This document shows, one piece after another, positions 1 to 58,965 of a stretch of DNA of 64,000 nucleotides. The notes under the pieces were generated by a model. The model made no database searches. It was not told the origin of the DNA and saw only the letters and a program-made list of their open reading frames with translations. The stretch is from an uncultured Victivallales bacterium. GTDB lineage: Bacteria; Verrucomicrobiota; Lentisphaeria; Victivallales; UBA1829. The stretch is from NCBI GenBank assembly GCA_944390795.1, contig CALXRI010000008.1, positions 1 to 64,000 of the forward strand, written 5' to 3'. Position 1 is the first letter of the stretch. Each line of letters opens with the position of its first letter. A program made the position numbers and the translations under genes.

Positions 1-70
1 CGCGGTCCAGCTGCGCAAGCTGGTCGCCGGAGGCGAAATCCCTAATACCGCGCATGCTTGCATCGCGGTA
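1..70 (+). repeat. Hairpin-string repeat, copy A (cut by window edge)
   Basis: Three inverted repeats follow one another: 6-bp arms at 7-12/18-23 (ccagct/agctgg), 5-bp arms at 24-28/32-36 with a 3-base loop, and 7-bp arms at 46-52/64-70 (taccgcg/cgcggta) around an inner atgc/gcat pair. Bases 1-26 are an exact reverse complement of 57663-57688, and the same module order recurs at 4464-4580 and, reversed, at 30661-30746. No coding potential is visible here. The copy probably begins before the window. Confidence 0.75.
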
Positions 71-127
71 ATTTATTGCAGCCGCATTCAGGCTTAATGC
101 AGGCATGATACCATTCTACGGTCTCAG

Positions 128-30605: not shown

Positions 30606-30638
30606 AAGCGCACCGGACAACCTCCGGTGCGCTTTTTT
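30606..30638 (+). terminator. Rho-independent terminator of nifJ
   Basis: A 12-bp perfect stem (30606-30617 with 30623-30634) with loop caacc is followed by further T residues. Confidence 0.95.
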
Positions 30639-30660
30639 ATGACGGGGAGATCAGGTGATT

Positions 30661-30746
30661 CCGCCTGCGGCGTCCAGCTTCCGCAGCCGGACCGCGCAAG
30701 GGCCTCCCGGCCCTTGTCCCCGGGAAAAATGCGCTGCATTTTTCCG
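30661..30746 (-). repeat. Hairpin-string repeat, copy D (reverse orientation)
   Basis: On the minus strand the order is: 10-bp arms ggaaaaatgc/gcatttttcc (30723-30732/30736-30745, 3-base loop); 8-bp arms caagggcc/ggcccttg (30697-30704/30709-30716); then a core at 30674-30696 matching copies A and C at 21 of 23 positions; then 4-bp cgcc/ggcg arms at 30662-30672 around a 3-base loop. The same module order is found in copies A, B and C. Confidence 0.75.
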
Positions 30747-55169: not shown

Positions 55170-57398
55170 ATGATAAAAGCCGCTGCGAAACACGACGCCT
55201 TTGATTCCGAAGCTTACCGGACGCTTTTTGAGGGACGGATCGCCGATCCGCACGCCATACTCGGAATGCATACCGAAAAAGACGGGATTGCCGTTCGGGT
55301 ATACGACCCTGTTGCGGAGCAGATCATCCTGATCGCGGACGGGAAAAGATTCCCGATGGAAAAAGTCGCGGACGCGGGACTCTTCGTCAAAACCTTCCCC
55401 GGGAAGAGGAAGCATTTCGATTATGTCGTGGAAAAACATTTCGCCGACGGCGGAACTTTCACCTCCGAGGATCCCTATCACTTCCTTCCCGGCGTCGGAG
55501 AAATGGACATGTATCTCTTCAACTCCGGCGAACACCACCGGATTTACGAGGTCATGGGCGCACATCCGCACCGCATGGGAGAGGTCGAGGGCGTTCTCTT
55601 CGCGGTGTGGGCGCCGAATGCCGAACGGGTCTCCGTGATCGGCGACTTCAACTGCTGGGACGGACGGCGAAACATGATGCGCCTCATGGGATCCTCCGGC
55701 ATCTGGGAACTCTTCATTCCGTCGCTTCAACCAGGCGACCTCTACAAGTATGAAATCCGCACGAAGAACGGCGACATACTCGTCAAGCTCGATCCCTACG
55801 CGCAGCGCACCGAACTGCGCCCGCACAATGCGGGAAGAGTCCCCGCCGCGTCACCGTACGCATGGACCGACGGAGACTGGATGGCGCGCCGCCCGAAATG
55901 CGATATTTTGAATTCGCCCGTCAATATTTATGAAGTGCATCTGGCCTCCTGGCGCGGACCGGGACTGCGTCAGCTGGATCCGGAAAAGAAGGACGATTTC
56001 CACAACTACCGAGAACTGGCGCATGCGCTTGCCGACTACATTCTGGAGATGGGCTACACCCATATCGAGCTTCTGCCGGTCTGCGAACATCCGCTCGATC
56101 AGTCATGGGGATATCAGGTAACGGGATTCTATGCGCCGACCGCGCGCTACGGCTCGCCGGAGGATTTCGCCTATTTCGTCGATTACATGCATGAAAAGGG
56201 CATCGGAGTGATTCTCGACTGGGTTCCCGCGCATTTTCCGAAGGACTCCTTCGGACTCGGGCGCTTCGACGGAACCGCGCTTTACGAGCATGCCGATCCG
56301 CGGCAGGGCGAACATCGCGACTGGGGAACCTACATCTTCAACTTCGGACGCAACGAGGTGAAAAACTTCCTGATCGGGAGCGCCCTCTACTGGTTCGACA
56401 AATTCCATGTGGACGGTCTGCGGGTGGACGCCGTGGCCTCCATGCTTTATCTGAACTACTCGCGAAACGAGGGAGAGTGGATCCCCAACAAATACGGCGG
56501 CAACGAGAATCTGGATGCGATTGCGTTTCTCCGGCGTCTCAACGAGCTGGCGCACGAGCTCTTTCCGGGGATCATGATGGTGGCGGAGGAGTCCACCGCC
56601 TGGCCGGGGGTCTCGCGTCCCGCCTATCTCGGCGGACTCGGATTCACCTTCAAGTGGAACATGGGCTGGATGCACGACACGCTGGAATATTTTGCGCTGG
56701 ATCCGATCTACCGCAGCTACAGTCACGGCAAGATCACCTTTTCGATGCTTTACGCCTTCACGGAAAACTTCATTCTGCCGCTGAGTCATGACGAAGTGGT
56801 TCACGGGAAGAAATCGCTGCTCGACAAGATGCCGGGAGACTATCAGCAGAAGTTTGCGAATCTGCGCGCTCTCTTTTCCTACATGATCACGCATCCGGGC
56901 AAAAAACTTCTTTTCATGGGCGGCGAGTTCGGACAGTGGATTGAATGGAACAGCAATGCGGGGCTTGACTGGATGCTGCTGGATTATCCGCAGCATGCGG
57001 CGATGAAGCGTCTTTCCGCCGATCTGAACCGTTTTTACCGGGAGAATCCGGCGCTCTGGGAGGTGGACTTCACCGATGCCGGCTTCCAGTGGCTGGACGG
57101 CGGAGATTTCCGGCAGTCGATTCTTTCCTATATCCGCTGGAACAGGAAACATACGGAGGCTGTTGTCGTGATTCTGAATCTCACGCCGGTGGTTCGGAAC
57201 GATTACGTGACCGGAGTGCCGTTTGCCGGGGAGTGGGTTGAGGTGTTCAACTCGGATGCAGCGGAATACGGCGGAACGGGATTGACCAATCCCGGAGTGA
57301 TGAAAACCGAGGATGGGCTTTATCACGGACAGAAACAGCATATCCGTCTGCGGCTGCCGTGGCTGGGCGCGGTATTCCTCAAGAAAATAAAAAAATAA
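55170..57398 (+). CDS. glgB: 1,4-alpha-glucan branching enzyme
   Basis: From the ATG at 55170 (AGGAGG just upstream) the protein has 742 residues. An N-terminal CBM48-type domain pair (about 15-220, with F-A-V-W-A-P-N-A) is followed by the GH13 barrel. The latter has the nucleophile in G-L-R-V-D-A-V (Asp near 419), the acid Glu in M-V-A-E-E-S-T (near 473) and the transition-state H-D-E in L-S-H-D-E-V-V. It makes alpha-1,6 branches in glycogen. No other glg gene is adjacent, so glycogen genes are scattered. Confidence 0.96.
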
Positions 57399-57497
57399 AA
57401 ATTAATCAGAAATATAAAAAAGACGGCAGGCCTGCCTGCCGGGTGCAGGTGTCTCACACCTGCCGCGGAGGGTGAGGGCGCGGAGCCCTCACGTTCT
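57399..57497 (+). repeat. Triple-hairpin unit, first copy
   Basis: The unit has an A/T-rich head (attaatca...atataaa) and three perfect hairpins: cggcagg/cctgccg (57424-57430/57435-57441), gcaggtgt/acacctgc (57445-57452/57456-57463, loop ctc) and gtgagggc/gccctcac (57472-57479/57485-57492). It differs from the second copy at only two positions. Confidence 0.9.
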
Positions 57498-57517
57498 AAA
57501 AAAAAATAAAAAACAGG

Positions 57518-57616
57518 AAATTAATCAAAAATATAAAAAAGACGGCAGGCTTGCCTGCCGGGTGCAGGTGTCTCACACCTGCCGCGGAGGGTGAGGGCGC
57601 GGAGCCCTCACGTTCT
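57518..57616 (+). repeat. Triple-hairpin unit, second copy
   Basis: This is the same 99-base unit 119 bases downstream, with substitutions at 57528 and 57550 only. All paired arms except one position of the first hairpin are unchanged. Confidence 0.9.
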
Positions 57617-57649
57617 TGAAAGTTTTTCAGTTGCTTCGCAATTTTTTGT

Positions 57650-57735
57650 TTCGTGCTGCGCACGACCAGCTTGCGCAGCTGGACCGCGGCAGGACTGAGA
57701 GTCCTGCACGAATCATAATTTGCGTTGCAAATTAT
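57650..57735 (-). repeat. Hairpin-string repeat, copy C (reverse orientation)
   Basis: On the minus strand the order is ataatttgc/gcaaattat (9 bp, 3-base loop), gcaggact/agtcctgc (8 bp, 3-base loop), ccagct/agctgg (6 bp) and tcgtgc/gcacga (6 bp, 3-base loop), followed by aaac. The core 57663-57688 is the exact reverse complement of bases 1-26. Confidence 0.8.
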
Positions 57736-57786
57736 TTTTTCAGTTGCGCAGCTTCGCGCGCAGGAAATAACTTTTCAGGAGGTAAA

Positions 57787-58965
57787 ATGAGATACATTCG
57801 TTTTGACAGTATCGGCGGCGCCGCCGGAGACATGATTCTCGCCGCCCTCGGCAGTCTCGGCGCCGATCTGAAACAGATTGAACAGGGACTGAACACCGCC
57901 ATTCCCGGCGACGCATTCGCCATCGAAAAAATCCCCTTTTCCGATTATGGAATGAACGGCGCAAAACTGGAAGTGAAAATCACGGAAAATTCCGGAACGG
58001 AACGCGCCCTTCCCGAAATTGCAGAGATCATCGACAACGCCCCGATGCCGGACGCGGCGAAAAAGCTGGCACATGAAGTCTTCCACCGCCTGGCACACGC
58101 CGAAGGCGAAGTCCACGGCTGCCACGCTCACCACGTGCATTTTCATGAAGTCGGCGCGGTCGACTCCATTGTGGACATTCTCGGCTCCTGCTGGGCGTTC
58201 GTCATGCTCGGAATTGATTCCATTTCCTTCGGCGCCCTGCCCGAGGGAACCGGCACCTTCCGCTGCCGCCATGGCATCTATCCGATCCCGGCGCCCGCCA
58301 CGCTCCGCCTCCTCAAAGGCATTGAGATCACGCAGACGGATGAACCTTTTGAAATGATTACCCCGACCGGAGCGGCGCTTCTGACGACGTTCCCGGGCGG
58401 ACAGAACCGCCGGATCACAGGCAAAGTCGTCGCGGAGGCCGTCTCCTTCGGAAGCCGGAAACTCAACGGACGCCCAAACGCACTGCGCGCAACTCTGATC
58501 GAGTCCGCCGAACGCGCCGCATGGAGCTGCGAGACATGCGTCGAACTGGAAACGAATCTGGACGACGTGCCCCCGGAAACGGCCGGCGCGATTGCAGCCG
58601 GACTGCTGGCGAACGGTGCGCGCGATGTCTGGATGACACCTGCCGTCATGAAGAAACAGAGACCCGGTTTTGTCCTGCACGTCCTCTGCATGGAGTCCGA
58701 TCTCGACCGCTTCTCGGAAACCCTCTTCCGGGAAAGCGGCACGCTCGGCGTCCGGGTGCGCCGCACGGAACGGCGTATTCTGGAACGGGACACGGTTGCG
58801 GTGAAACTTCCCTGCGGCACGGAAATCCATGTCAAGCGCGCGTTTCTCGGCGGCAAAGTCATTTCCGCAAAACCCGAATACGAGGAATGTCTGCGTGCCG
58901 CCCGCGAACAGGGGATTCCTTACAGGGAAGTTTTTCTTTCCGCCCTGAACGCGCTGAAATCATGA
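57787..58965 (+). CDS. larC: Nickel insertion protein LarC (nickel-pincer cofactor cyclometallase)
   Basis: The protein has 392 residues. The opening R-F-D-S-I-G-G-A-A-G-D-M and the His-rich H-G-C-H-A-H-H-V-H-F-H-E-V-G-A-V-D-S-I segment are diagnostic of LarC. The C-terminal half includes L-E-T-N-L-D-D-V-P-P-E. It inserts nickel into the thio-pyridinium cofactor in a CTP-dependent step. Unlike the frameshifted larC1/larC2 of Lactobacillus plantarum, this is a single frame. AGGAGG lies 4 bases upstream, and the stop overlaps the hemW start (ATGA at 58962-58965). larE is at 42.3 kb. Confidence 0.93.
   Translation: MRYIRFDSIGGAAGDMILAALGSLGADLKQIEQGLNTAIPGDAFAIEKIPFSDYGMNGAKLEVKITENSGTERALPEIAEIIDNAPMPDAAKKLAHEVFHRLAHAEGEVHGCHAHHVHFHEVGAVDSIVDILGSCWAFVMLGIDSISFGALPEGTGTFRCRHGIYPIPAPATLRLLKGIEITQTDEPFEMITPTGAALLTTFPGGQNRRITGKVVAEAVSFGSRKLNGRPNALRATLIESAERAAWSCETCVELETNLDDVPPETAGAIAAGLLANGARDVWMTPAVMKKQRPGFVLHVLCMESDLDRFSETLFRESGTLGVRVRRTERRILERDTVAVKLPCGTEIHVKRAFLGGKVISAKPEYEECLRAAREQGIPYREVFLSALNALKS

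Follow-up and report, generated by a model that had tools for sequence, protein, structure and literature searches.

Hairpin-chain repeats of the Victivallales: a probable family of mobile DNA cassettes with a local cluster between glgB and larC

Background

The GTAG- and CGTC-tagged REP, BIME and REPIN sequences are high-copy intergenic palindromes that form mosaics in both orientations and include subfamilies with alternative complementary residues in their stems. Dispersed hairpin DNA devoid of genes is also found among the ERIC-like and other miniature palindromic elements and the hairpin elements of mitochondrial genomes. The PATE elements of Haloquadratum, which are of the IS605 type, are described in the accessible part of PMC3119063 as non-coding, homogeneous elements with near-terminal palindromes, a longer palindrome distance at the 5' end and a short fixed target on the left.

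Here we analyze a 64,000-nucleotide stretch of DNA from an uncultured Victivallales bacterium (assembly GCA_944390795.1, contig CALXRI010000008.1, positions 1 to 64,000 of the forward strand; henceforth the window), in which the region between glgB and larC is packed with hairpins. This array probably represents a local accumulation of repeats from a non-coding hairpin-chain family that propagates as DNA in the Victivallales. The family is not known to be related to the ERIC-like, miniature palindromic and mitochondrial hairpin elements, and we know of no order-wide modular hairpin family of comparable build. It shares the above features with the REP group, but its unit consists of three or four hairpins with fixed linkers, where a REP unit is a single palindrome of 20-40 bp; the four stems in the consensus of alignments A2 and A3 have, by eye, neither a GTAG nor a CGTC tag beside them; and no full-length RAYT was found in the genomes richest in the family. 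Furthermore, G.T pairs, which are frequent in GTAG REP repeats according to the accessible part of PMC3733652, are rare in its stems. A 150-bp carrier of the module resembles PATE in its near-terminal palindromes with the longer distance at the 5' end, its short fixed target on the left, its lack of coding capacity and its homogeneous copies but, going by the same part of PMC3119063, differs from it in that its passenger module also lives alone and its autonomous partner is only a candidate; the window array further differs from PATE in lacking carrier-type end hairpins. A search of the open-access literature, one part of which gave few relevant hits, returned no prior description of such a Victivallales repeat: the available portion of PMC6006769 mentions neither Lentisphaerae nor Victivallis, and that of PMC12985086 deals with genome-wide reverse-complement triplets and does not describe the present family.

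The hairpin array between glgB and larC

The gap (57399-57786) is bounded by the stop codon of glgB (57398), whose product contains GlgB_N, CBM_48 and Alpha-amylase domains, and the ATG of larC (57787), which encodes a Ni_insertion domain. The original prediction described about eleven perfect hairpins, a 119-base tandem period and a 99-base unit present twice with two substitutions, and each of these points was borne out by counting. The 388 bp contain 11 perfect hairpins that do not overlap, counted with arms of 5 bp or more and loops of 2-8 and together taking up 206 bp, against a mean of 1.96 and a maximum of 6 in 300 dinucleotide shuffles of the gap; at arms of at least 7 bp there are 8 hairpins, against a shuffle mean of 0.16 and maximum of 2. 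The tandem copies 57381-57499 and 57500-57618 are identical at 110 of 119 positions, and within them 57399-57497 and 57518-57616 are exactly 99 bases each with two substitutions (57409 and 57432), one in the A/T head and one in the first hairpin's loop. The RNA fold of the gap has z-scores of -9.4 (plus strand) and -9.8 (minus strand), and the DNA fold -8.1 (plus strand). The features of the array are:

57381-57499, no strand: tandem unit 1 (unit O), an A/T head and three hairpins (repeat comparison)
57424-57441, no strand: hairpin CGGCAGGC/GCCTGCCG, terminator-like on the minus strand, where TCTTTTTTAT follows (hairpin and terminator scan)
57445-57463, no strand: hairpin GCAGGTGT/ACACCTGC, h3 of unit O (hairpin scan)
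57472-57492, no strand: hairpin GTGAGGGC/GCCCTCAC (hairpin scan)
57500-57618, no strand: tandem unit 2 (unit O), 110/119 identical to unit 1 (repeat comparison)
57543-57560, no strand: second copy of hairpin 57424, terminator-like on the minus strand (hairpin and terminator scan)
57564-57582, no strand: second copy of hairpin 57445 (hairpin scan)
57591-57611, no strand: second copy of hairpin 57472 (hairpin scan)
57646-57736, plus strand: M module (h1-h2-accgcg-h3-acgaatc-h4), member of the dispersed family (covariance model R1, 62.7 bits, E = 1.6e-11)
57651-57665, plus strand: h1 of the M module, TCGTGC/GCACGA (hairpin scan)
57666-57682, plus strand: h2 of the M module, CCAGCT/AGCTGG, the conserved stem (hairpin scan and core pattern)
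57689-57707, plus strand: h3 of the M module, GCAGGACT/AGTCCTGC (hairpin scan)
57715-57735, plus strand: h4 of the M module, ATAATTTGC/GCAAATTAT (hairpin scan)
57745-57762, plus strand: eleventh hairpin, TGCGC/GCGCA (hairpin scan)

Architecture of the modules

Copies of the family follow a fixed plan, (gatt)h1-h2-linker-h3-linker-h4, in which h2 is nearly constant (CCAGC..GCTGG) and the linker between h2 and h3 reads accgcg. Type M, the version in the window array, has GCAGGACT in h3 and AATTTGC or AAAATTGC in h4, and type N has CAAGG(G/A).. in h3 and GAAAAATGC or GAAGAATGC in h4; hybrids join an M-type h1-h2 to an N-type h3-h4 at the linker. The order of the hairpins in the chain varies between the loci that were read individually. 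Unit O gives no match to model R1 at E 0.05, and its h3 plus linker (57443-57468) is an inverted match to the h3 plus linker of the M module (26 nt, 85%), with the differences between the two h3 hairpins falling, by eye, at paired stem positions. From this match and the common plan, unit O looks like an inverted relative of the M module.

In large arrays a center with further nested stems is enclosed by an M module on one side and an N module in inverted orientation on the other (e.g. the 407-bp tandem in L081), and in genome G134 a hairpin-rich center lies between inverted terminal modules. One locus of that genome (L203; G134:C11:132000-134200) has a module whose h1 shows 21-bp perfect arms and a 2-base loop; this module belongs to an inverted pair about 0.5 kb apart. 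In the g10 genomes a second repeated hairpin segment, AACCGCTTT..AAAGCGGTT, lies beside N modules (L216, L217, L158, L255); several of its copies also contain GCCTTTGC..GCAAAGGC, and in L217 it is in tandem with the N module. At L155 (G019:C62) several near-identical CCGCTGCGCGG segments stand in series upstream of an N module.

Phyletic distribution

As a DNA query, the gap finds 70 matches in the 3.44-Mb draft genome that it comes from (G000), mostly to the second half of the gap (about 57649-57762), 34, 28 and 1 in the genus relatives G002, G003 and G001, and 16-24 in three genomes of another genus. A strict core pattern recovers 67 copies in G000, 99 in G002, 166 in G003 and 38, 22, 14 and 18 in four g10 genomes, with no control matches in any of these seven and 0-2 per genome overall; as many copies lie at contig ends, the counts from draft genomes are low. 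Within one genus the number of strict-pattern copies ranges from 0 to 166. A covariance model built from 32 N-type copies has matches at E 0.001 in 40 of 137 Victivallales genomes, a figure that counts matching rather than verified genomes, as some weak matches (e.g. L163, L166, L167, L171, L173 and L178) showed no chain in the stretch viewed, which was not always the match itself. Matches to this model were counted up to a ceiling of 31 per genome. The arrangement h3-(a/g)cg(c/t)ggt-h2-h1-aa recurs across several Victivallales families, with unrelated h1 and h3 stems at the loci examined. Across the phylum the core pattern is positive in 18 of 288 genomes. Two of these (G174 and G250) lie outside the order and were considered as a sign of wider spread, but the stretches read there hold lone h2 stems without a chain, and we take them as chance. 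Among the genomes sampled, similar triple hairpins occur in several Victivallales families, with no convincing case outside the order.

Presence, absence and tandem growth at orthologous sites

The window gap holds two copies of unit O and one M module. At the orthologous position, L057 (LarC 92% identical) has one of each and L056 (94%) has three copies of unit O and two M modules, whereas in L058 (76%) and L059 (64%) the gap is about a dozen bases or less with no hairpins; the sequences without the array are too distant to give its exact ends. The hairpins, whose absence from close relatives and from the rest of the genome would have counted against the original prediction, are found in this gap in two close relatives as well as at other places in the genome. 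A further family member is present in the window:

30656-30745, plus strand: second family copy, with N-type h3 and h4 (R1, 69.4 bits)

This module lies about 20 bp behind a terminator-like hairpin (30606-30634). The site (30606-30745) has this hairpin followed by one module in G000 and two in G002, and its orthologs have one decayed module in G003 and none in G001. No clean empty site for a lone module was obtained, the g10 flanks being too diverged. The family remodels the DNA between genes from one close species to the next.

A 150-bp carrier element

The M core is also found in a homogeneous element that reads CAAAAAAATTTAGG, a GCGATGC..GCATCGC hairpin, the M core, a TACCGCG..CGCGGTA hairpin and ATTTATT. 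Its right end occurs, with at most 3 mismatches, 32 times in G000, 39 in G002, 34 in G003 and once in G001, in species-specific versions that differ at fixed positions. One copy opens the window:

1-77, plus strand: right-hand part of a carrier, cut by the contig start (R1 match and right-end pattern)

In the same draft, contigs C8, C38 and C47 begin with the same carrier core and C13 ends in one, which means that this draft is interrupted at such repeats; many contig ends of draft assemblies are due to the family.

Almost all carrier copies that were read (25/28) stand behind TT(T/C)ATT, are 149-151 bp long and also end in TT(T/C)ATT, with one end hairpin placed some 22 nt in from the left end and the other 8 nt in from the right. 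Carriers outside tandems are found behind a terminator-like hairpin at 7 of 23 sites, compared to 23 of 298 control sites (p = 0.0026). Empty sites were sought for six carriers out of a set of nine. L091 has a clean empty counterpart in L240 (G002:C38), which is uninterrupted with a single TTTATT; L079 has a probable one in L244, the right flank being only partly alike; L084 is filled; and L078, L086 and L088 gave no clear call. The letters fit a fixed left target TT(T/C)ATT, and a 6-bp duplication around a 144-bp element would give the same ones. Neither the GCGATGC hairpin nor the CGCGGTAATTTATT end of the carrier is present in the window array (57399-57786).

Candidate enzymes and a model for mobility

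A search with PF01797 of the drafts, which are 94-95% complete, found one partial match in G000 (an IS200 relic with a different end hairpin), only pieces with stops in G002 and none in the G003 draft. G001 has an intact Y1/IS200 element, again with a different end hairpin, and almost no copies of the family. The distribution of RAYT/Y1 proteins does not track copy number, and we rejected them as a clear driver. The right-end pattern led to no intact Y1 transposase that shares the ends of the carrier; the matches in G008, G025, G033, G038 and G001 have no adjoining transposase recognizable as Y1, and in a single case, at the start of G024:C293, a Y1 transposase fragment is followed after about 30 bp by a carrier right end. 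This fragment is the only enzyme link for the carrier, and a thin one.

On balance we favor the view that the family consists of mobile DNA-level hairpin cassettes of the REP/PATE type with a new architecture, for which the moving enzyme is only a candidate. This agrees with the mobile-element option of the original prediction, which gains from the dispersed copies, their presence or absence at orthologous sites, the tandem growth and the exact carrier insertions. Modules built from three or four perfect hairpins joined by fixed linkers would be copied into the spaces between genes, frequently downstream of terminators and rarely where the genes diverge, and would afterwards multiply in tandem, possibly by replication slippage at the hairpins. 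The position of the end hairpins, the fixed target on the left and the recurrence of its letters on the right suggest that carriers might move like IS200/IS605-derived elements, as single-stranded DNA whose hairpins are recognized in trans by an HUH/Y1 transposase. Repetition of the target letters at the right end would also explain the head-to-tail tandems. Lone modules without end hairpins, such as that between glgB and larC, may have arrived with carriers or recombined out of them, and the hairpin might act as its own repair template, so that both arms change together. A bolder and rather doubtful version is that this is self-spreading DNA with the hairpin chain as the heritable unit: both arms would be rewritten by hairpin-templated repair, h2 and the linkers would stay fixed, perhaps read by an HUH-type nuclease of the host or a mobile element, and cassettes would recombine at the linkers into new arrays.

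Gene context

Gene context was scored with a simple gene caller trained on G000, leaving out 22 of 82 arrays at locus edges. The 60 arrays with both neighbors lie between 35 tandem, 18 convergent and 7 divergent gene pairs, whereas 46 background gaps of at least 80 bp comprise 21, 10 and 15, respectively. Divergent placement is thus rarer among the arrays (7/60 versus 15/46, Fisher p = 0.014), but because several genomes contribute and some arrays are orthologs of one another, this avoidance is only a trend. In tandem gene pairs, modules are on the same strand as the genes in 32 cases and on the opposite strand in 29. Comparison of 140 flanking ORFs from 72 loci yielded no recurrent neighbor (99 singletons, 16 pairs, one group of 4 and one of 5), which speaks against a dedicated partner gene. 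The largest group of similar array-adjacent proteins (L033, L034, L145, L174 and L177), whose genes may be simply common here, has an N-terminus that we take to be prepilin-like.

The architecture conserved across the order could instead mean a host function. By analogy with proposals for BIMEs, and in line with the protein-binding option of the original prediction, the modules might be binding sites under selection for a nucleoid protein, gyrase or hairpin-binding protein, a reading consistent with the order-wide conservation of h2 and its linker and with intergenic locations away from divergent promoters. We regard this as unlikely, given that strict-pattern copies vary from 0 to 166 within one genus and no neighboring gene recurs.

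Stem pairing and covariation

In alignment A4, which fits the best 150 of 163 matches (147 of them distinct) to the covariance model, 96.9% of 3746 stem cells are paired, 651 cells are changed on both sides, and 27 of the 28 stem pairs show paired changes. Covariation is 0.413; shuffles give 0.128, with the observed value reached in 0 of 500, and sliding the alignment gives no more than 0.069. Of 35 N-type copies, alignment A2 retains 32; as the patterns used for their selection prescribe parts of h2, h3 and h4, only h1 is unbiased in it. One-sided states are rare in the A4 stems, with 61 G.T and 29 A.C cells in the orientation of the model. The G.T share (61/3746, 1.6%) is well below that of 13 tRNAs from the same loci (17/275 pairs, 6.2%; p = 1.3e-5, the cells not being independent). 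The many two-sided changes together with the rarity of one-sided states argue for, but do not prove, either a hairpin that matters as DNA or joint rewriting of both arms. The paired stem changes form a natural series, poor in intermediates, on which hairpin-templated repair or selection for DNA hairpins could be tested directly.

Strong covariation, conserved linkers and a very stable RNA fold would also be expected if each copy produced a structured non-coding or cis-regulatory RNA, as the original prediction had considered, and the excess of G.T over A.C (61 to 29) points the same way, although it may stem from the model, which favors such pairs. Such an RNA is nevertheless quite improbable: strand is random with respect to the flanking genes (32:29), G.T pairs are far scarcer than in tRNAs, ten array loci give no Rfam match at the gathering score except a tRNA, the best Rfam hit of the gap (E 0.088) is far below gathering, and no sigma-70-like promoter was found in the gap.

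Terminators and local effects at larC

The original claim that the array is far beyond a terminator holds for the whole, but hairpins 57424-57441 and 57543-57560 themselves score as terminators on the minus strand, with none on the plus strand. Despite these two sites and the position of family copies behind terminators, duplicated terminators or insulators are a very improbable explanation, as both predicted sites are oriented against glgB and larC, shuffles already yield a mean of 0.8 such sites, most module hairpins lack a T-run, and four hairpins with fixed linkers are unnecessary for a terminator.

If the array is a cluster of mobile hairpin cassettes, its only effect at glgB-larC is likely to be the lengthening of a near-zero gap and the addition of weak terminators on the opposite strand. 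A ribosome-binding-like GGAGG is located upstream of the larC ATG at 57787. An open frame with a TTG start (57616-58965) continues from the array in phase into larC, and automatic annotation may therefore extend larC into the hairpins.
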